The notes under the pieces are model-generated. The model did not search any database, had not been told where the DNA came from, and saw only the letters and a list, made by a program, of their open reading frames with translations. A program made the position numbers and the translations under genes. Below, in pieces: positions 8,041-27,961 of a stretch of DNA of 30,175 bases (its first letter is position 1; every line of letters starts with the position of its first letter). The DNA comes from a virus: the IMG/VR virus record IMGVR_UViG_3300035698_006747, positions 1 to 30,175 of that record, one strand, 5' to 3'.

Positions 8041-8967
8041 CTACGTTTTATCCAAAAACATAGGATCATTGTTTATACTTAACTTCTCTTCCTGCAATCT
8101 ATCCTTCTCTTCTCTATCAGCTACTATATCATTATAACTACGTTCGGCCGGAGTGTTGTCTTCCTCTGGCTTATCTATCTCTTCATCCAGTTCATCCATC
8201 TGCTCTTGTAACTTCTCCTTCTTCACTTTCAACTTATACTGTTTCCTCTTCTCTGCTTCCTCTTTCTTCTCCTTCTCCTTAACTATCTCCACTTCCTTCA
8301 AATGCTTCTCTTGAATCTCTACCGTTACAACTCCTGATGGGACACCTTTAGGTATAATAACTTTCCCAAACTCTGGATGTATAGTAACATCAGCTTTAGC
8401 TAGCACTTCTTCTAACTCCTTCTTAGCCTGCTTAGCTAATTCTATACTTTGATTCTCCTTAAAGTTAGTTCTAAAAGCTTCAGCTTCTTTCCTTTGCTCT
8501 TTTGTTATAGGTCCTCCAGTATATCTTTTAGTTGATGTAGATGGTTTTGATTCTGTTATAGGCTTAGTTCTTTCATAAGAAGACTCTGGCGGAGCATAAC
8601 CACCTGCCCTCTCATGCCTTCTTTCATCCAACTCGAAGTTATGAAGAGTATTTCTCTTTCCTTTATCATCTGGATTACAAGGTACACCAAACCTTCCTTC
8701 TAATATAGCATGAGCTTCTTGTGCAGTGTCTATCATTCTAACAGCGCCAGATTCTGTAAGATGTATTACTAATTGTTCAACTACTATTTTCAATATGTCT
8801 GACCTAAATCTAATTAGTCCTACTATCCCTTCATTCTCTATCCACTTCATCAATGTAGCTAAATGTCTACTCTGCAGCCATACCTGCATTGGTACATCTC
8901 GTTTATAAGTCTCTGGATTACTAAGCGCGCTTCCTCGTGTACTATCTACGACCGGACTATTACTCAT
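8041..8967 (-). CDS. Coiled-coil hypothetical protein (308 aa)
   Basis: 308 aa, the largest unassigned protein of the left arm. Residues 25-95 look globular and helical (VPMQVWLQSRHLATLMKW onward), 120-160 are Pro/Ser/Thr-rich and probably unstructured, and 218-266 form a Lys/Glu coiled coil (KEKEKKEEAEKRK region). A short beta element (GKVIIPKGVPSGVVTVEI, 201-218) lies between. The start overlaps the stop of the 36-aa zinc gene as ATGA. A scaffold-like or replication-accessory role is possible, but nothing in the sequence decides it. Confidence 0.7.
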   Translation of the reverse strand: MSNSPVVDSTRGSALSNPETYKRDVPMQVWLQSRHLATLMKWIENEGIVGLIRFRSDILKIVVEQLVIHLTESGAVRMIDTAQEAHAILEGRFGVPCNPDDKGKRNTLHNFELDERRHERAGGYAPPESSYERTKPITESKPSTSTKRYTGGPITKEQRKEAEAFRTNFKENQSIELAKQAKKELEEVLAKADVTIHPEFGKVIIPKGVPSGVVTVEIQEKHLKEVEIVKEKEKKEEAEKRKQYKLKVKKEKLQEQMDELDEEIDKPEEDNTPAERSYNDIVADREEKDRLQEEKLSINNDPMFLDKT

Positions 8968-11594: not shown

Positions 11595-11945
11595 ATGATA
11601 GATAAATACGGAATATCTTTAGACGGAGTGGCTGGAATTACTTTTGCAATAGCATCTACTGCTGCTGCTCAAAATTTCTCTGCTGCTCAAATGAGTAATA
11701 TTAATGGATGTAAAGCTATAGGATGTGTAATAACTTGTGAAGGTGAAAGTATCCGCTTTGCTTATAATGTAGATCCTATCGCTGGACCTTTAGCTTGGGT
11801 AGGTGCTTTAGGTCATGTACTCTTTGCTAATCAATCTATGGTAATTCAAAACTCTAACAGTATAGCAAACTTCCGCTTTCTAAGCCTAGGTGAGCAATCT
11901 CCTGCACAACTTATGGTAACTATGTACTACGAGATAGGAGCATAA
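11595..11945 (+). CDS. Hypothetical structural-type protein (116 aa)
   Basis: 116 aa, rich in Ala, Ser, Asn and Gly with alternating beta strands (GITFAIAST, CKAIGCVITCEGESIRFAY, HVLFANQSMVIQN) and no long helix. Three cysteines cluster at GCKAIGCVITC. No signal peptide. Composition fits a small virion surface protein or fibre domain. It starts 3 bases after the previous stop. Family not recognised. Confidence 0.6.
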   Translation: MIDKYGISLDGVAGITFAIASTAAAQNFSAAQMSNINGCKAIGCVITCEGESIRFAYNVDPIAGPLAWVGALGHVLFANQSMVIQNSNSIANFRFLSLGEQSPAQLMVTMYYEIGA

Positions 11946-11946
11946 G

Positions 11947-12780
11947 ATGAAAAAACTATTAATAATTCCAGCTTTTTTCTTTCTTATTATATTCTCTACA
12001 ATGGCTCTATCTCCTATCGGAGGTGGGCCTATAGGTCCTGTTCCTCCAAGTGATATAGCTTACAATGCTGCTACTTGGAATGGATCACAGTTAGCTCCTA
12101 CTCAAAATGCTGTAAGGGATTGGATAGTAGGTTCTGCCGGAATCTATCAACCTTTAGCGGCTTCTTTAATTTCAATAAGTGCGTTAACAGAAACTGCTGG
12201 TGGATTTCTCTATGCTACAGCTGATAATGTCTATGCTTGGTTAAATCCAGGAGTAGCTAATTCTATGTTGGTAGGTTCTAGTCCCACTACAGTTCCTACA
12301 TGGATATTATCTACTGGTACTGGTGCTCCAGTAATGAATGTTTCTCCTACCTTAACCACTCCTAATATAGGAGCTGCTACTGGTACAAGTGTTACTGTTA
12401 CAGAAGCGATTTCGGGACTTGCGGCGCGCGGAACCACTATAACAGGCAATGTAGCACTCAACACCACAGATTTGCATAGCAAGATGTATCTTGCAACTGC
12501 CGCTGCAATAGTAACTCTTGATGCTGCTGCCGATGCCGGGTACGGTGCGCTGGCAATGTTCATTGTCAGAGATACCGGAGAAACATTAAACCTCAACCCT
12601 GATAACGCTGAGAAGTTTAATCTTCACGGAGTAGCACTTGCAGCCGGTAAATCAATAGATTCCCCTGGACAGCCTGGTGACATTATATGTATTGTAAGCA
12701 CAGACGATGCTGACGGGTCGGGAACTGACGGGTGGAGAACGCTTGGCTATGTAGGTGGTGATTGGGCTAATGGAGGATAA
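11947..12780 (+). CDS. Fibre-like protein with N-terminal signal peptide (277 aa)
   Basis: 277 aa. N-terminus MKKLLIIPAFFFLIIF is a typical Sec signal (basic start, about 15 hydrophobic residues, then STMALS). Residues 35-150 are tail-fibre-like, with AYNAATWNGSQLAPTQNAVRDW resembling the SQLAPTQNAVRD element common in phage fibres. The C-terminal 110 residues are a beta domain (DLHSKMYLATAAAIVTLDAAADAG...) like those ending tail fibres. Base composition changes near 12400: the first half is AT-rich like the genome, the second clearly richer in G and C, so the gene looks chimeric. Export of a fibre-type protein is unexpected. Confidence 0.68.
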   Translation: MKKLLIIPAFFFLIIFSTMALSPIGGGPIGPVPPSDIAYNAATWNGSQLAPTQNAVRDWIVGSAGIYQPLAASLISISALTETAGGFLYATADNVYAWLNPGVANSMLVGSSPTTVPTWILSTGTGAPVMNVSPTLTTPNIGAATGTSVTVTEAISGLAARGTTITGNVALNTTDLHSKMYLATAAAIVTLDAAADAGYGALAMFIVRDTGETLNLNPDNAEKFNLHGVALAAGKSIDSPGQPGDIICIVSTDDADGSGTDGWRTLGYVGGDWANGG

Positions 12781-14187
12781 ATGAAAAAACTACACTGGTT
12801 AATTATACTTCTTATTCTTGCAGTTGCAGCACCTACTGGAGCATGGTTGAACCTCTCGATGGTTTCTGGCTCTCCAGGGTCTTCTAACTATTATGCTGAG
12901 TTACCCATCACAATAGCCGCAGGTGAAGCAACTGGCTTGAAAACATCTGCTGATTTTGCCGATGCGCCTTATGGTGCCGACCTGCCTACCGGGTGGGATT
13001 TTACGGTCGGATGGGCAGGTATCGGCACTGGCCCATCAATTGATGGTTCTGATACGTTTAGCACTACTGGTGGTGGTGGTCTATTCAAGACATACCTAAC
13101 TGAGAACACAACGTATGTTTTAGAATTTGATGGCGTTACTTCTGCTACAACGGTTGAGTTTAGAACAAGAACCCTTGGTGGTACTACTATCTTAATCGGT
13201 ACTGGATTTGATAGGTATGTGTTTACGACCGGGGCAGGGCATGTTCAAGTTTATTTCAGAAACACATCGGCAGGCAGTACGGTCGTAACACTATTTACAA
13301 TCCGCAAACTCTCAGGCAGCAACGCAATCCTGACAGAGCTTAACAGGACGAAGAGGGCAAATGAGACGGAGTTGTGGGATGCTGCGGCGAGTATTTTCAC
13401 AAGCGGGACTTATTCGTGGTCACCTTTGGGCGGCAACACAATTGCAAACGTAGGCAATGAGCTTGAAGTAACTTATGTAGACAATCAAAACGGGACCAAT
13501 GATTTATTCCGAGACAGTGCTGATTTAACGCAGGATTTAGTTATAGGTGATAAATATCAACTCACTGTTGACGCATATTATAGCGGTGGCGCTGGTAATA
13601 CTAAATTAAGGGTTTCTGATGGGATTGCGGTCCAAACCGGTGCCGCATTAACTACTACGAAAACTCCTTACGTATTTGAGTTTACTGCTCAATCCACTAC
13701 GGGTGGTTTTCTTACATTACAAAATATGGCCGCTGGTAATGTTGCCTATCTGGACAATGTATTCCTTCAGCAAATGCAACCCACAGTCACCACCCTGAAA
13801 AGAGTTGCCGACGTTGAGACTGTGCTTGATACGAGCTATGTGGATTATTCGGCCGCGGCTGGACTTGTCACAATCAAAGAAGGCGAAGATGTCACAGTAA
13901 TTTACGACGATGCTGTTCTAACCCGTGAAACTGTGAGCGATGCTTCCGTTATCTACAGCAAAATCAATAAAAAGTTTGGGGATAACGTGGCTGAAGCAAC
14001 TGTTATTCGGTTCGGAGTTGGTACGGTTATAGCAACTGGAACATGCACTCTTAATACGATTTATAAGGTTAGTGTGACTCAAGCGAATCATTATGGGGTT
14101 GGTGTTGTAGCAGATAATATTTTTGTATCTGACGGAACAGAAACTAACGATGCTAATAATCAAGTATGGGCGGTGAATACTCCATGA
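12781..14187 (+). CDS. Adhesin/fibre-like protein with signal peptide and CBM-like domain (468 aa)
   Basis: 468 aa, starting directly after the previous stop. MKKLHWLIILLILAVAAPTGA is a predicted signal peptide. The rest is beta-rich with many Thr, Gly and Ser. Residues about 190-330 (TSGTYSWSPLGGNTI..., DLVIGDKYQLTVDAYY..., GNVAYLDNVFLQQ) have the order of a carbohydrate-binding jelly-roll: strands, a YxLTVDAYY core and a closing YLDNV strand. A C-terminal segment (NDANNQVWAVNTP) resembles fibre tips. Codon use after the signal sequence is richer in G and C than in genes on either side. It probably binds surface glycans; whether it is in the virion or secreted is open. Confidence 0.66.
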   Translation: MKKLHWLIILLILAVAAPTGAWLNLSMVSGSPGSSNYYAELPITIAAGEATGLKTSADFADAPYGADLPTGWDFTVGWAGIGTGPSIDGSDTFSTTGGGGLFKTYLTENTTYVLEFDGVTSATTVEFRTRTLGGTTILIGTGFDRYVFTTGAGHVQVYFRNTSAGSTVVTLFTIRKLSGSNAILTELNRTKRANETELWDAAASIFTSGTYSWSPLGGNTIANVGNELEVTYVDNQNGTNDLFRDSADLTQDLVIGDKYQLTVDAYYSGGAGNTKLRVSDGIAVQTGAALTTTKTPYVFEFTAQSTTGGFLTLQNMAAGNVAYLDNVFLQQMQPTVTTLKRVADVETVLDTSYVDYSAAAGLVTIKEGEDVTVIYDDAVLTRETVSDASVIYSKINKKFGDNVAEATVIRFGVGTVIATGTCTLNTIYKVSVTQANHYGVGVVADNIFVSDGTETNDANNQVWAVNTP

Positions 14188-14501
14188 GTTGGTTTTCATA
14201 TAAGAAAAAACCTAAACGAGATAAGTACACTACTGTTATTCTTGATAGAATACAATTCTATTTTTATGAGGATAAGTCAAGATTTCTTGCAGCTATAAGC
14301 GATCCTGATCATCTAAGAAAAAACTGGGTTGGAGCTACGTTTAAGAAAAGAAATGAGATTCATATCTATATGGGAACTCAATCAGATGAGGATAGAGATA
14401 AGAATAAGCGATGGTTAGGTCATGAAGTATGGCATCTTCTCGAATATCAAAATCCTGAGAAGTTTACAGATCCAGATATAGATGGAGGAAGATTAAAATG
14501 A
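14184..14501 (+). CDS. Small HExxH putative metallopeptidase (105 aa)
   Basis: The start at ATG 14184 overlaps the upstream stop as ATGA. A longer frame from 14166 is possible but less likely. 105 aa with a basic N-terminus, two strands (KYTTVILDRIQFYFY and EIHIYMGT) and HEVWH at residues 80-84, an HExxH zinc motif, within RWLGHEVWHLLEYQ. Glu87 or acidic residues in the tail could give the third ligand. The layout, an edge strand (NEIHIYMG) before the HExxH helix, is that of minimal zincins. It is encoded among exported fibre-like proteins, so it might process virion or host surface proteins (inference). No signal peptide is seen. Confidence 0.66.
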   Translation: MSWFSYKKKPKRDKYTTVILDRIQFYFYEDKSRFLAAISDPDHLRKNWVGATFKKRNEIHIYMGTQSDEDRDKNKRWLGHEVWHLLEYQNPEKFTDPDIDGGRLK

Positions 14502-16921
14502 AAAAGACTAGATTAGCTACTTTTGTACTTTTCTTTGTTTTAATAGCAACCTTTGCTTGGTCTCAATATTTTCCAGATATTATTGTAACTTCTCCTAATG
14601 GAGTCTGGACTGATACTAGAGCCTATGCAACTATTGATGCTGCTATTACAGCGGTAGGAGCTAATGTTAGAGATATTTATATTGTTAGGGAAGAAGCTAC
14701 CACTGCTCTAACTATTCCTATTACTGCTAATCTTCACTTTCTTGGTTCAGGTGCAATAGCTAATACTGGCCAGCTTGATATTGAGACTTATAATATTATT
14801 GCAGGTGATCGTCAGATCTTTACTGGGACTGGTGATATAGACTGGGATGATGGAGCTATTGTACGAACTACTTGGTTTGTTGATCTTGATGAAGCATTAG
14901 ATGTAACTAATGATGATGCTTTAACAATGGTAATAGCACAGACAGAAACTACTGATGATGATATGGCAGTTGGTGATGATGTAGTTCTTCGTTGGGAATC
15001 TCCTTTCATTATTACAGTAGATGCAGGAGATACTTTATCAAATGTAAAGAATATAGAAGCATGGAATTATCAGATCTTAGCCGGTGCAGGGGAAGTAGAC
15101 TTCCTTGATGGTAGTGAGTTAAATTTAGATTGGTTTCTTAATCTACGTGCTGTATTAACTTGGGTAGGAGCTGAAGAAGTAACTATTCATGTATACGGAG
15201 ATCATGTTGTAGATTTAACTGATGCTACTACAATAAATGAGAGATTAGATCTATCTAACGGAGTATTTGATATAACTGCAGGAATTACTCTTACAACTGT
15301 AGGTTATGTAAAAGCTGGCCCTAGAGCATTTGAACTTACTGGAGATATAATCATTAATGGGTATCTTGATGCAGGATTATTCCAAGTATTTTCTGGTGCT
15401 GGTACTGCAACTATCGGTGCAGGATATACTAGAGATATAGTACCACAGTGGTGGGGAGCAGTTGGAGATGGTGTGACAGATGATGTAACTGCTATCAATG
15501 CTGCTATAGCATCATTTGATGCAACTAACGGTGGTACTCTTTATTTTCCAGCTGGGAAGTATTTAACAGAATCTCCAATAAACTTATCAGCAATAAGTAA
15601 TACCGTAAAAAGAAACGGAGTTATAATTCGTGGGTCTTCAAAGACAGGTTCTGGAGGTAATACCGGTACTGGTATTATCATCAATCATACAGGAGTTGGA
15701 ATTGAGTGTGTAGGTGCTAGATATTTAACATTTAAAGATCTTCTTATAACTGGTAGTGCTGTTAATACTCCTACTGTTGGAATTCTTCTAGCAAGAGGTG
15801 GAGCTGGTGTAATTGATGGTGGAAGTGCTGGAGAACATCTTTTTGAGAATGTTCAGTTTATGGGAAGTTATTCTATTGCTAATGTATTCAGTTATGCGTC
15901 TGAGATAAATAGTTATAGAAATTGTGGATTCTATAATAATGAAGATGGAGGAAAAAATCTTTGGCTTACAAGTGATAATGATGAAGGAGTTGCAAGTACA
16001 TTTATAACTATTGATACAGGTAATAAGTCTAATACTGTTCACTGGATAGATCATTGTAACTTTAATAATGCAGGAGGTACAAACTCCGATAACATCTATA
16101 TGAGAGGAGTTACAAATATAAGAATTAGGGATAATTATTTTGTAATGACAGATGCAGCATCTAGAGCGAATATCTATGTTAATGCTGATACTTATGTTAC
16201 ATCTCAAATGATAGTTAATGGATCTCGTTTTGAAACAGGTCAATTAGCTGAATATGGTATTCAAGTAGCTGGTGGTGTGACTTGTAATAACTGGACAGTT
16301 AATAGTAATCACTTTGATGCAAATTCATTTGCTATGTACTCAGCTGATACTTTATTGCAGACACTGACACTGTTTGGAAATTATGATGAAACTCCAGCAC
16401 AAGGCTTCTCATTTTATGCTATATCTCTAGGTAATATAAATACAATGAATATAGCTTATACAACAAGTCTTTATACTAGACAATCAAATATTATAGTCTC
16501 AGCTAGTAGAATCGGAACTCTTGGAACACAGACTGTAAGTATTACTGATAATACTATATTATATCCAGATACAGGATTGCAAACAAATACGGTTAGAGTT
16601 AGTAATATGATTACTCTCGATAATACTGGAACTCCGAGTGTCACTGAAAGTAATACATTTACTACTGGAGGAACAACTACTATCACTAATTTTTTAGGTG
16701 GAACAGCAGGGCAAATCATTCATATTTCTGCTGGACATACTGTAACTATAGATTTGACAGGAACTAATATTACTGGAAGTAGTGCTGATATACAGTTAAC
16801 TTTATCAGATGCTATTTCATTCATGTGTATTAATGGTAATACATGGAGATTGTTAAACTTTAATGACGCTAACGCTGATAATAGACAGAAAGGTGCTGGT
16901 GGAGATCTTTATAACAGCTAA
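14498..16921 (+). CDS. Tailspike-like right-handed beta-helix protein with signal peptide (807 aa)
   Basis: 807 aa, the largest gene here. Residues 1-22 (MKKTRLATFVLFFVLIATFA) form a signal peptide. Residues 30-320 hold three copies of a GAG-type block (IFTGTGDIDW at 107-116, ILAGAGEVDF at 193-202, VFSGAGTATI at 297-306), each followed by a WF or WWG. At 316-360 PQWWGAVGDGVTDDV...AINAAIA...GGTLYFPAGKY is the classic start of a Pectate_lyase_3 beta-helix, as in tailspikes that cleave surface polysaccharide. The C-terminal 100 residues form a beta cap. It overlaps the HExxH gene by 4 bases. Function as a glycan-binding or depolymerising spike is likely; the export signal is odd. Confidence 0.8.
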   Translation: MKKTRLATFVLFFVLIATFAWSQYFPDIIVTSPNGVWTDTRAYATIDAAITAVGANVRDIYIVREEATTALTIPITANLHFLGSGAIANTGQLDIETYNIIAGDRQIFTGTGDIDWDDGAIVRTTWFVDLDEALDVTNDDALTMVIAQTETTDDDMAVGDDVVLRWESPFIITVDAGDTLSNVKNIEAWNYQILAGAGEVDFLDGSELNLDWFLNLRAVLTWVGAEEVTIHVYGDHVVDLTDATTINERLDLSNGVFDITAGITLTTVGYVKAGPRAFELTGDIIINGYLDAGLFQVFSGAGTATIGAGYTRDIVPQWWGAVGDGVTDDVTAINAAIASFDATNGGTLYFPAGKYLTESPINLSAISNTVKRNGVIIRGSSKTGSGGNTGTGIIINHTGVGIECVGARYLTFKDLLITGSAVNTPTVGILLARGGAGVIDGGSAGEHLFENVQFMGSYSIANVFSYASEINSYRNCGFYNNEDGGKNLWLTSDNDEGVASTFITIDTGNKSNTVHWIDHCNFNNAGGTNSDNIYMRGVTNIRIRDNYFVMTDAASRANIYVNADTYVTSQMIVNGSRFETGQLAEYGIQVAGGVTCNNWTVNSNHFDANSFAMYSADTLLQTLTLFGNYDETPAQGFSFYAISLGNINTMNIAYTTSLYTRQSNIIVSASRIGTLGTQTVSITDNTILYPDTGLQTNTVRVSNMITLDNTGTPSVTESNTFTTGGTTTITNFLGGTAGQIIHISAGHTVTIDLTGTNITGSSADIQLTLSDAISFMCINGNTWRLLNFNDANADNRQKGAGGDLYNS

Positions 16922-16926
16922 ACTAT

Positions 16927-18480
16927 ATGAATAAAGAAATTCAAGATATACACTCTCTATGTTCTGTTAGTACTAGAATGACTGCTCAGTCGTTTTTTCC
17001 TGAGCGATTCTATATGCCTTTTGCTGATAAAGTTCATGGAGAGATATTTAAACTTATTGATGGTCCTGAGAATAAAGTTGCAATTGCAGCTCCTCGTGGT
17101 TGGGGAAAGACTTCTATTGTAGCTTTAGCATTAATGGCTAGATATATTCTATTTAATCATACAGGGTTTATCTGCTACATTAATAAAAGTCATGATGCTG
17201 CCAGTTTACAGACTGAAAACTTACGTCGTGAGTTAGTAACAAATAGAGAGATAAGATACTTTTTTGGAAATTTTAAAGCTAAGGAAGTAGGGAAAGAACA
17301 GTTTGATGAAGTATTTTCAAAGAAAGCTTGGGTTGCTTATAATACTCTAGTCTGGCCAAGAGGGGCAGGACAGCAGGTTCGTGGAGTCCTTTTCAAGAAT
17401 GATCGGCCAGGACTTATTATTATAGATGATCTTGAAGATCCTGATATGATTCAGAGTGAAGAATATAGAAAAAACCAATACGAATGGCTTTATGCAGATG
17501 TTGTTAAAGCTGTACCACGTATAGGACCACAAGCTAAGAATTATAAAATAGTCTATATTGATACTTTAAAACATGAAGATTCAGTTCTTCAAAAACTTCT
17601 TGACTCAGATGAATGGGCTTCTGTAAGACTTGAAGCTTGTGACGATAACTTTAAATCTACTGCCCCTCTCTTTATGTCTGATGAGGATATAGGAAAGGAA
17701 TGGGAGAATCATGTAAAGTCAGGACAAACAGATGTATTCTTTCGTGAGCTTCGAAATCTTCCTATTTCAACTAAAGACGCTTCATTTAGAAAAGAGTATT
17801 TTCATTACTATAATATACCTCAAGAATCAGGGATTAGAGAAGGAGATATTAATAAACTAGACGCAGATGTACAAAATGATTCAAGAGTGGAATGTGCAGT
17901 AATTGTTGATCCTGCAAAAACAGTTAAAATTCATTCTGCTGAAACTGCAATAATAGGCCTTGGCTTTGACTTTACAAGAGCTAGAGTCTATGTTCGAGAT
18001 GCGATATCTGAAAAACTATATCCAGATGAGATTTATGATGAGATGTTTGGAATGGCTACAAGGATAGGAGCAAAAGTAATAGGATTTGAGGAAACATCTT
18101 TAAATGAGTTTGTTAAACAACCTATTAAAAATGAGATGTTTCGCAGAGGGGATTTCTTTCAAATGGTCTGGCTTAAAGCTAGAGGCGGTCAAGGAGGAGA
18201 GAAAGGTAAAACTTTACGAATTAGGGAGCTTGTACCTTACTATCGTGGAGGTTATATTTATCACAATGCAGCTTGTACAACTATGAAGGTTTTAGAAGCT
18301 CAACTTATGATGTTTCCTAGGTCAGCTCTATGGGACTTAATGGATTGTTTAGCTTATTTAATTTCCTTGCTTGAAATGGGAGAGAGGTACTTTTCTCCTT
18401 CAGAAAATTCAGATGATGTAGAAGCTGAATTTGATGGTCTTGAGTATGAAGATCCTGTCACAAACTGGAGGGTAGCATGA
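16927..18480 (+). CDS. terL: Terminase large subunit
   Basis: 517 aa, usual size. ATPase domain: Walker A APRGWGKTS (55-63), a Walker B strand LIIIDDLED (163-171) and a coupling segment at about 205-215. C-terminal RNase H-like nuclease: Asp328 in CAVIVDPAK, Glu388/Glu389 in GFEET and Asp470/Asp473 in WDLMDCLAYL, the three acidic positions of TerL nucleases. Known: it pumps DNA into the procapsid using ATP and cuts the concatemer. No clear Shine-Dalgarno precedes the ATG (AGCTAAACTAT), so expression may depend on coupling to the tailspike gene 5 bases upstream. The family is certain. Confidence 0.96.
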   Translation: MNKEIQDIHSLCSVSTRMTAQSFFPERFYMPFADKVHGEIFKLIDGPENKVAIAAPRGWGKTSIVALALMARYILFNHTGFICYINKSHDAASLQTENLRRELVTNREIRYFFGNFKAKEVGKEQFDEVFSKKAWVAYNTLVWPRGAGQQVRGVLFKNDRPGLIIIDDLEDPDMIQSEEYRKNQYEWLYADVVKAVPRIGPQAKNYKIVYIDTLKHEDSVLQKLLDSDEWASVRLEACDDNFKSTAPLFMSDEDIGKEWENHVKSGQTDVFFRELRNLPISTKDASFRKEYFHYYNIPQESGIREGDINKLDADVQNDSRVECAVIVDPAKTVKIHSAETAIIGLGFDFTRARVYVRDAISEKLYPDEIYDEMFGMATRIGAKVIGFEETSLNEFVKQPIKNEMFRRGDFFQMVWLKARGGQGGEKGKTLRIRELVPYYRGGYIYHNAACTTMKVLEAQLMMFPRSALWDLMDCLAYLISLLEMGERYFSPSENSDDVEAEFDGLEYEDPVTNWRVA

Positions 18481-18715: not shown

Positions 18716-19879
18716 ATGGCTCTTCAAACAATCAGAATAGGTGCTGTGGAATATGCTGCTCAGTATGATGATGGAGATTTTCCTAGCGCTATTGAAACTA
18801 CACAGACTATAAAAGCAGGATCAGCAGTAGATCCTAATGACGTAGTTGTATTAGGCGATATACCTGTAATAGGTAATGCAGTATCTGCTCTTGCTGTCAT
18901 AGCTGATCATTCAATAGTTCGTGGAGATGGTGGAGTTAAAGCTGTTCAAGATAGTTTAGTAATAATAAGTGATACAGGTGGAATTACTATACCTAATGGA
19001 TTAACTATTGGTTGTGTAGCAGTTCCAGCAGCTATCACTATCGAAGTAGATGGAGACTTACTTCTATCAAATCGTCTTGGATTAGGAATAACTCCTGCTT
19101 ATGATATACACATTCAAAAGGCTGCTTCACCAACTATATTATTAGATGATACTACTAATAATTGCTTAACATTCCTACAATCACAGAATCTCTGGGGTTA
19201 TGTTGGTACTACTAGCGCTCACGGTTTTAGAGTTCAGACTAACTCTGTTAATCGAATAGGTATTACATCTGCTGGTGTTACTAATATAGGGGATGCTGGA
19301 ACTACTAATTATGCAAGTTTTTTAGTAGATGGCGAATTAAACTTAGCCGGAACTGCGAGAGTACTTAATCATCAGACGATTGATGTTTCAGCTATGAAAA
19401 GGGGTGTGGGTAGTCCGCCCGGGGAAGGGCTTAAAGACGGTTTTCCAACATTAGATTTTGATGATGCAGTTGACGAAGAAATTTTCTTTTCTTTTAAAAC
19501 TCCTTCTCGTCATGATCCTGCAACTGATATGTCTTTACATATAATGTTTTTTGTAGATACTGCCCCGGTTGGTGCAGCAGGTGTTGCATGGGCTATAGAA
19601 TGGAAAGCTACAGCTGAGACTGAGACTATTGATTTTACAGCTGGAACGACTACGATAGTAGATGTAGTTGCAATTACAACTGGAACACCTGCTAACGATG
19701 CTGTAAGAATTGATTGTGAAGATTTAACTGGTGGAGCTGGTGCAATAGCAGCCCATGATTTTATACAGTGTAGACTATATCGAGATGTTAGTGATGCAGG
19801 AGATACCTTTGTTGGAGATGTAAGATTAATAGAAGTGCATGTTCACTATACATCTAACAAATTAGGAACAGCTACTTAA
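18716..19879 (+). CDS. Fibre-like virion protein (387 aa)
   Basis: 387 aa, beta-rich, with no signal peptide. The N-terminal 60 residues look like an attachment domain. Residues 90-200 have fibre features (GDLLLSNRLGLGITPAYDIHIQ, the LGIG-TP-x-x-IHI pattern of tail-fibre shafts; VNRIGITSAGVTNIG). The C-terminal part from about 225 (KRGVGSPPGEGLKDGFPTLD) is a separate domain ending HVHYTSNKLGTAT, encoded with a short GC-rich patch at 19395-19440 at its boundary, suggesting module exchange. Its place between terminase and portal suggests an appendage or fibre. It is preceded by the GTTTT/AAAAC hairpin motif. Confidence 0.62.
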   Translation: MALQTIRIGAVEYAAQYDDGDFPSAIETTQTIKAGSAVDPNDVVVLGDIPVIGNAVSALAVIADHSIVRGDGGVKAVQDSLVIISDTGGITIPNGLTIGCVAVPAAITIEVDGDLLLSNRLGLGITPAYDIHIQKAASPTILLDDTTNNCLTFLQSQNLWGYVGTTSAHGFRVQTNSVNRIGITSAGVTNIGDAGTTNYASFLVDGELNLAGTARVLNHQTIDVSAMKRGVGSPPGEGLKDGFPTLDFDDAVDEEIFFSFKTPSRHDPATDMSLHIMFFVDTAPVGAAGVAWAIEWKATAETETIDFTAGTTTIVDVVAITTGTPANDAVRIDCEDLTGGAGAIAAHDFIQCRLYRDVSDAGDTFVGDVRLIEVHVHYTSNKLGTAT

Positions 19880-21847: not shown

Positions 21848-22162
21848 ATGGATGATATGGAAGTTAGAATTAATGCTACTAAAGATCAGATAGAAGATTT
21901 TACAGAGTCTATTTTATGGAAGGACATCAAGAATGAATTAAAAATCTGGCAAACAGCTGCTATGCAGGAATATGCTCAGGTAATAGGTAATGTTATAGAA
22001 GGGAATTCTGGGATAGAGAATTCTGATATGCACTTAGGAAGTCTTTATGGCAGAGAAAGAACAATAGATTTTTTACTAGGTTTACCTGAGATGTTTTTAC
22101 AGTTACTTGAAGATAAAGTAAAGGAGAAGGAAGATGAGTCTAGATCCAAATCAACCGACTGA
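21848..22162 (+). CDS. Portal-adjacent hypothetical protein (104 aa)
   Basis: 104 aa, acidic and helical, starting 2 bases after the portal stop. ILWKDIKNELKIWQTAA (22-38) and GRERTIDFLLGLPEMFL (68-84) resemble a small protein often found directly after portal genes in podovirus-like phages; its function is not known to me. It overlaps the next gene by 29 bases. Confidence 0.65.
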   Translation: MDDMEVRINATKDQIEDFTESILWKDIKNELKIWQTAAMQEYAQVIGNVIEGNSGIENSDMHLGSLYGRERTIDFLLGLPEMFLQLLEDKVKEKEDESRSKSTD

Positions 22163-22598
22163 TCAGGAAATAGTTAGTAGAATGCCTTATTGGGTGAGAA
22201 CAATGGCAGCAGCTATTAATGCAGTAGTTGCTACTTCTGGCTTTACTGTTACTAATTTAGACGTGCCAGCTGCCACTACTTCACTGACTGTAGGTTCTGA
22301 ACTATCAGCAGCTGGGCATGAAATAGTTATCTGTACTGGTCTTGGATTACTTATTGATATAGCAACTATTATTGGAGGAACTGAAGGGCAGATAAAAACT
22401 TTTATATTCCAAGATGCTTTGATAAGTATAACAGATGGTGTGAAGAATAGCGGAAAGTTTTATTTAGATAGCTTACCTGCTCTAGGTACAGAAACCTTTG
22501 CTATAAATGATGTTCTTACTTTAGTAAATATAGGTGGTGATGGAGCTGCTACTTATGGATACTGGAAGGAAATTAATAGACTTACAGCTGTTAAATAA
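22134..22598 (+). CDS. Hypothetical virion-type protein (154 aa)
   Basis: 154 aa, with a helical N-terminus (DQEIVSRMPYWVRTMAAAIN) and a beta-rich, Gly/Thr-rich remainder. The N-terminal helix may act as a capsid or portal anchor and the rest as an exposed domain. AAGGAGAAGGAAG precedes the ATG. Lacks known motifs. Its location within the head cluster suggests a minor structural protein. Confidence 0.6.
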   Translation: MSLDPNQPTDQEIVSRMPYWVRTMAAAINAVVATSGFTVTNLDVPAATTSLTVGSELSAAGHEIVICTGLGLLIDIATIIGGTEGQIKTFIFQDALISITDGVKNSGKFYLDSLPALGTETFAINDVLTLVNIGGDGAATYGYWKEINRLTAVK

Positions 22599-27667: not shown

Positions 27668-27961
27668 ATGAGTAAGTTAGGAGACGATCAAAGAAATTTT
27701 GCGAAGAATTTTCCTTTGTTGCTTCTATTTGCTTTAAATCAAGGATATGAAGTTACCTTTCAACCTGAACATACTAAACATATTAAGAAAAGTTATCACT
27801 ATGATGGAAGAGCAAAAGATATTAACTTGTTTAAAGATAATATTTTTCTAGATAAAACTGCCCATCATGAACCTCTTGGATCTTTCTGGGAATTTTTAGG
27901 AGGTACTTGGGGTGGAAGATGGAATGATGAAAATCATTACTCCTGGGGAGAAAGAAGATGA
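27668..27961 (+). CDS. Minimal M15-family endolysin (peptidoglycan peptidase)
   Basis: 97 aa. Zinc site in the family's order: S-x-H-x-x-G-x-A-x-D at 42-51 (His44, Asp51) and a distal His90 in NDENHYSW, with GGTWGGRW before it. This is the signature of M15 (VanY/L-alanyl-D-glutamate type) peptidases, which cut peptide cross-links in peptidoglycan. Family members are usually about 130-150 aa; this one is only the catalytic core, with no wall-binding domain or signal peptide, so a holin or other export step is expected. It lies among connector genes, and the next gene overlaps its end as ATGA. It could instead be a virion-associated lysin. Confidence 0.85.
   Translation: MSKLGDDQRNFAKNFPLLLLFALNQGYEVTFQPEHTKHIKKSYHYDGRAKDINLFKDNIFLDKTAHHEPLGSFWEFLGGTWGGRWNDENHYSWGERR

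Follow-up and report, generated by a model that had tools for sequence, protein, structure and literature searches.

Three large genes of an uncultured podophage-type contig, here named P1, P2 and P3, are each predicted to start with a cleavable Sec signal peptide, and their products are very probably exported to the periplasm. Moreover, comparison with related contigs gives good support to export itself being the selected property. Phage fibres and spikes are taken to stay in the cytoplasm until lysis and, to our knowledge, tailspikes carry a virion-docking N-domain and no export signal. We found no published precedent in the open-licence literature for tail fibres or tailspikes with a Sec signal. 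If our prediction is right, uncultured phages that tag large fibre- or tailspike-like proteins for export put tailspikes to an unusual use. Some phages would then act on the host envelope or matrix through secreted proteins, or finish their virions outside the cytoplasm. Automated "tail fibre" annotation of such genes would also be misleading, and some spikes of uncultured phages might be secreted glycan enzymes that could be put to practical use.

Results

The contig and its relatives

The window is the whole 30,175-base virus record; this contig is of the podophage type and has Desulfofustis phage MD01 among its relatives (Table 1). MD01 (LS06-2018-MD01, OP947158) is the closest annotated relative that we found, with 47% identity in the capsid protein and 46% in the large terminase subunit (TerL), while phage 119X of the Fredfastierviridae is more distant. 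Both possess related major capsid and TerL proteins and a gene order similar to that of the window. MD01 differs, however, by having no large signal-bearing gene, its large fibre-like genes being signal-free. Its host was assigned through CRISPR spacers (PMC10370329), and the host of the present phage is inferred via one distant relative. Genes were called with a simple ORF chooser, and the portal and capsid genes were named after their annotated relatives in MD01. No tRNA was found in the window.

The related contigs used for comparison are metagenomic, mostly incomplete and kin to one another. In one contig (L089, JAHFMX010000007.1), filed under the MAG "bacterium isolate nzgw467", TerL, portal and capsid genes occur together with a P3 homologue, so that it looks like a phage contig binned in a MAG. 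It is the sole cellular-genome match to the P3 N-domain and gives no direct host assignment.

Table 1. Features of the P1-P3 region and of genes compared with it. A slash marks the predicted cut; a single position is that of the gene start.
Feature	Position	Strand	Basis or remark
TerS-like gene	10590	+	
Shine-Dalgarno AGGAG of P1	11936..11940	+	sequence
P1, 277 aa, fibre-like	11947..12780	+	mature motif PIGGGPIG
P1 signal peptide, 22 aa (ALS/P) or 20 aa (TMA/L)	11947..12012	+	n/h/c rule; weight matrix 9.3
Shine-Dalgarno GGAGG of P2	12772..12776	+	sequence
P2, 468 aa, no known family	12781..14187	+	Pfam, PHROG
P2 signal peptide, 21 aa (TGA/W)	12781..12843	+	weight matrix 8.8; near-identical in G020
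111-aa ORF without signal, zincin-like HEVWH motif (HExxH type)	14166..14501	+	between P2 and P3
Shine-Dalgarno GGAGG of P3	14484..14488	+	sequence
P3	14498	+	
P3 signal peptide, 22 aa (AWS/Q)	14498..14563	+	positive by the rule; weight matrix 5.4; signal kept in 19/19 homologue loci
P3 conserved mature N-domain, residues 23-310, strand-rich	14564..15427	+	identity, AlphaFold
P3 junction (PQWWGAVGDGVTDD) and variable pectate-lyase-type beta-helix, residues 311-807	15428..16918	+	PF12708
TerL	16927..18480	+	PHROG 38, E 7e-61
Fibre-like gene without signal, conserved RIGS..YDD N-terminus, variable C-terminus	18716..19879	+	
Portal	19890	+	
Second fibre-like family without signal, PTD..P.YIR N-terminus	22134..22598	+	
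Major capsid protein	25552	+	
Glycan-enzyme genes in the TerS-TerL slot of relatives	L040 11167-14794; L048 11916-13383; L077 3137-5953		

P1, P2 and P3 start with predicted signal peptides

The sequence-only reading had described three MKK starts, each followed by a hydrophobic segment and a small-residue cleavage site. These ORFs are indeed as described, with a strong ribosome-binding site ahead of each and an ATG that adjoins or overlaps the stop codon of the preceding gene. Nearby on the 3′ side of the hydrophobic segments, we saw no in-frame start preceded by a ribosome-binding site. The three genes had also been called consecutive, which is not the case, as the 111-aa ORF separates P2 from P3.

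Each N-terminus shows the tripartite organisation expected of Sec/signal-peptidase I substrates: a charged n-region, a short hydrophobic core and, marked by small residues at -3 and -1, a plausible cleavage site. The predicted cuts fall between MKKLLIIPAFFFLIIFSTMALS and PIGGG in P1, between MKKLHWLIILLILAVAAPTGA and WLNL in P2, and between MKKTRLATFVLFFVLIATFAWS and QYFPD in P3, whose predicted mature N-terminus is QYFPDIIVTSPNGVWTDTR.

Signals were called with a home-made explicit rule for the n-, h- and c-regions and with a von Heijne-type matrix that recognised E. coli controls. In the related contigs the rule was positive for 34 of 936 genes as against 2 of 2896 internal-methionine pseudo-starts and 27 of 4680 shuffled N-termini; hydrophobicity arising by chance was rejected. 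As the matrix, at a cut-off of 7, separates genes from internal controls poorly, it served as a supporting test only. A small ORF at 11595 reached a matrix score of 8.4, yet failed the rule.

P3 combines a conserved N-domain with a variable beta-helix

P3 resembles podoviral tailspikes such as P22 gp9 by its right-handed beta-helix, its PQWWGA.GDG.TDD junction, its conserved N-part and its exchangeable C-part. It differs from them by its signal, as none was found in the tailspikes of eight isolated phages that have the same junction. P3 matches PF12708 over residues 320-363 (E 1.8e-11) and a PHROG tail spike family (E 2.4e-4), and its family profile retrieved AlgE mannuronan epimerases (E 2e-9) and an iota-carrageenase from the PDB sequences. 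On these profile matches P3 is a candidate polysaccharide depolymerase; no active site was traced in it. Of the downstream domains proposed beforehand, only the pectate-lyase-like beta-helix of P3 has database support. The "fibre" of P1 and the "carbohydrate-binding" domain of P2 found no such backing: neither protein has a Pfam match, a significant PHROG match or a match among isolated phages. The AlphaFold model of P2 was unusable (pLDDT 30). That of P3 reaches a pLDDT of about 90 over residues 61-300 and is poor in its C-terminal half; as only the N-domain of this model is reliable, its Foldseek matches are weak, with none in the PDB at E <= 0.001 and five in the viral library.

A search of viral contigs with the single P3 sequence retrieved no relatives, but a five-sequence alignment did. 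Eighteen viral loci, several being repeat extracts of already fetched contigs, carry the N-domain, as does the MAG-binned contig. In our searches of viral and cellular genomes it is confined to one phage clade, near TerL. Wherever a locus extends to TerL (12 viral loci and the MAG contig), this gene lies 3′ of P3, within about 2.6 kb. Identity among the homologues is 63% at residues 23-120, decreases to 36% within the N-domain and is about 15% past residue 360 in the beta-helix.

All 19 loci carry a signal. These signals have small residues at -3 and -1, are mostly 20-24 residues long and are Gram-negative in style. Among the 18 P3 sequences, however, the mean pairwise identity is only 0.32 in the signal as against 0.59 in the first 60 mature residues. 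To retain the pattern but not the residues is typical of a signal peptide and not of a docking peptide.

Signal-bearing genes cluster between TerS and portal

In the relatives, the interval from TerS to portal contains 94 genes of at least 200 aa, not counting terminases and portal, and 28 of them are signal-positive, as against 1 of 243 such genes elsewhere (Fisher p about 2e-16, a value that ignores the relatedness of the contigs). The lone exception, a P3 homologue, belongs to G004 and sits at a contig end. Unrelated N-domains carry signals at the same loci in L006, L011, L014, L018, L020 and L025, and signal-bearing spikes with unrelated N-domains sit at the same locus in G007, G008 (lipobox type), G013 and G017. 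The mature start of P1, of the PI(S)GGGPIG type, resembles those of signal-bearing genes in G004, G005, G012 and L080. A survey of related phages for the same three-gene block had been suggested: large signal-positive genes do recur in the TerS-portal block, but their domains differ and five contigs (G002, G003, G006, G015 and G019) have none.

These comparisons lend good support to the claim that selection acts on export itself: relatives always retain the signal although its residues vary, and at the same loci unrelated domains stand behind different signals.

P2 and part of P1 are shared with a distinct lineage

The C-terminal half of P1 is 72.5% identical to a signal-bearing gene of G020 that has a different N-part, and P2 is about 50-57% identical to a G020 gene over its full length, including the signal. 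No match to the TerL or portal of the P1-P3 clade was found in G020, one structural protein of which is akin to those of the Pseudomonas phages NV1, UFV-P2 and Bjorn. Judging from these comparisons, G020 is an unrelated podophage lineage that shares P2 and the C-half of P1. G+C content is 0.43-0.49 in the P1 C-half and P2 (12400-14100) as against 0.35-0.36 in P3 and TerL, which is consistent with an import of the segment from the P1 C-half through P2.

A relative of the 111-aa ORF (28% identical, with a lipobox-like N-terminus) lies at 3057-3533 of L063, near the P2 homologue of G020. At 4314-9513 of L063 (G020), a fibre-type block shows five signal-like N-termini, four of which were called by the rule and one, at 8545, read by eye.

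Discussion

From the starts, the signal anatomy, its conservation and the exchange of domains described above, we infer the following course of events. During infection, P1-P3 would be synthesised as precursors with cleavable Sec signal peptides and would cross the host inner membrane. Their destination would be the periplasm (the closest relative whose host is known is a phage of the Gram-negative Desulfofustis), and they would remain there until lysis. Lysis would then free them as tailspike-like, non-virion proteins that bind or cleave glycans. The likely gain would be a trimming of host surface or extracellular polysaccharide that frees the progeny from debris and matrix. As a whole, this explanation is tentative, with close to an even chance of being right.

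The pectate-lyase-type beta-helix of P3, its alginate epimerase and iota-carrageenase matches, the glycan-enzyme neighbours in relatives and the signal-free fibres alongside all argue for free glycan-acting proteins. That P1-P3 are virion proteins was an assumption of the sequence-only reading, and these genomes carry separate fibre families without signals. The 18716 product is a candidate virion-attached receptor-binding protein, and an N-terminus like that of the 22134 family heads a 656-aa MD01 protein. Soluble phage polysaccharide depolymerases that are freed at lysis and act outside the particle have been described (PMC5380687); their release is as proposed for P1-P3, whereas Sec export is not described there. 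A free depolymerase kept in the cytoplasm would also be freed at lysis, so that release alone fails to explain a selection for export.

Two further observations weigh against free proteins. A conserved mature N-domain followed by a variable beta-helix (63% to 15% identity) is the usual pattern of virion docking, and no other large tailspike candidate was seen among the late genes of G009. P3, and perhaps P1, might instead be exported, fold in the periplasm and dock on finished virions at lysis, the N-domain being the docking module. The architecture is that of virion receptor-binding proteins, the N-domain occurs in only one phage clade near TerL, and the P22 tailspike adds to finished heads in vitro. 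On the other side, the signal-bearing spikes at the same locus in G007, G008, G013 and G017 have unrelated N-domains, P2 and the C-module of P1 are also found in a lineage whose structural proteins are unrelated, and fibre families without signals are present. We consider such late docking rather unlikely. The broader proposal is improbable. In it, the receptor-binding or depolymerase spikes of this podophage clade would be produced outside the cytoplasm, Sec-exported and matured in the periplasm, and would arm the virions only at lysis, so that virion assembly would be finished across the inner membrane.

An export that precedes lysis would be easiest to understand if the proteins had work to do before the cell bursts. 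The exported proteins could bind or degrade nascent polysaccharide or receptors of the living cell, together with phage glycan enzymes, and thereby block superinfection or change the surface. The TerS-TerL slot of relatives also holds genes for a family 2 glycosyltransferase, an NAD-dependent epimerase, methyltransferases and a radical-SAM/glycosyltransferase fusion, which would suit such a role but may instead target phage proteins or DNA. A parallel is WceF of Pantoea stewartii, a tailspike-like beta-helix enzyme with an export signal that acts on the exopolysaccharide of its own bacterium (PMC7949094). Unlike P3, WceF is encoded by a bacterial biofilm operon rather than by a phage, and is exported by Tat and not by Sec. 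Against an action on the living cell, the C-termini of P1-P3, read by eye, show no recognisable outer-membrane anchor or sorting signal, and the block adjoins TerL among apparently late genes. We regard this role as unlikely.

The N-termini had also been proposed as virion anchors, uncleaved hydrophobic segments fixing the fibres to the tail or another part of the virion. Hydrophobic N-termini are capable of protein-protein contacts, but the cores have the length of signal peptides and not of transmembrane segments, the n-regions are charged and the P3 homologues keep small residues at -3 and -1. Moreover, a docking peptide should be conserved, whereas here strong conservation starts at the cleavage site, and the mature part next to the hydrophobic stretch is better conserved than that stretch itself. 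Anchoring is thus very unlikely. Finally, wrong start codons, with true starts downstream leaving the hydrophobic segments untranslated, have a negligible probability and were rejected, as no point in their favour was found and the Shine-Dalgarno sequences at the MKK ATGs, the coupling to upstream stops and the equivalent start in 19 homologue loci all stand against them.

Signal-peptide endolysins such as Lys44 of fOg44 and SAR endolysins use the host Sec machinery (PMC6116005). They resemble the predicted P1-P3 as phage proteins that engage host Sec, and differ by targeting peptidoglycan for lysis. A lysis-enzyme reading of P1-P3 was rejected. The window has a probable M15-type endolysin at 27668-27961 (PF13539, 24.2 bits against a cut-off of 25), which, unlike the Lys44 and SAR types, carries no signal.

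Three contigs that also hold glycosyltransferase-like genes encode Thr/Pro-rich TTLAPTT repeats (L002 10320-10682, L003 20134-21402 and L004 8672-9658), and one might guess that these repeat proteins are glycosylated.
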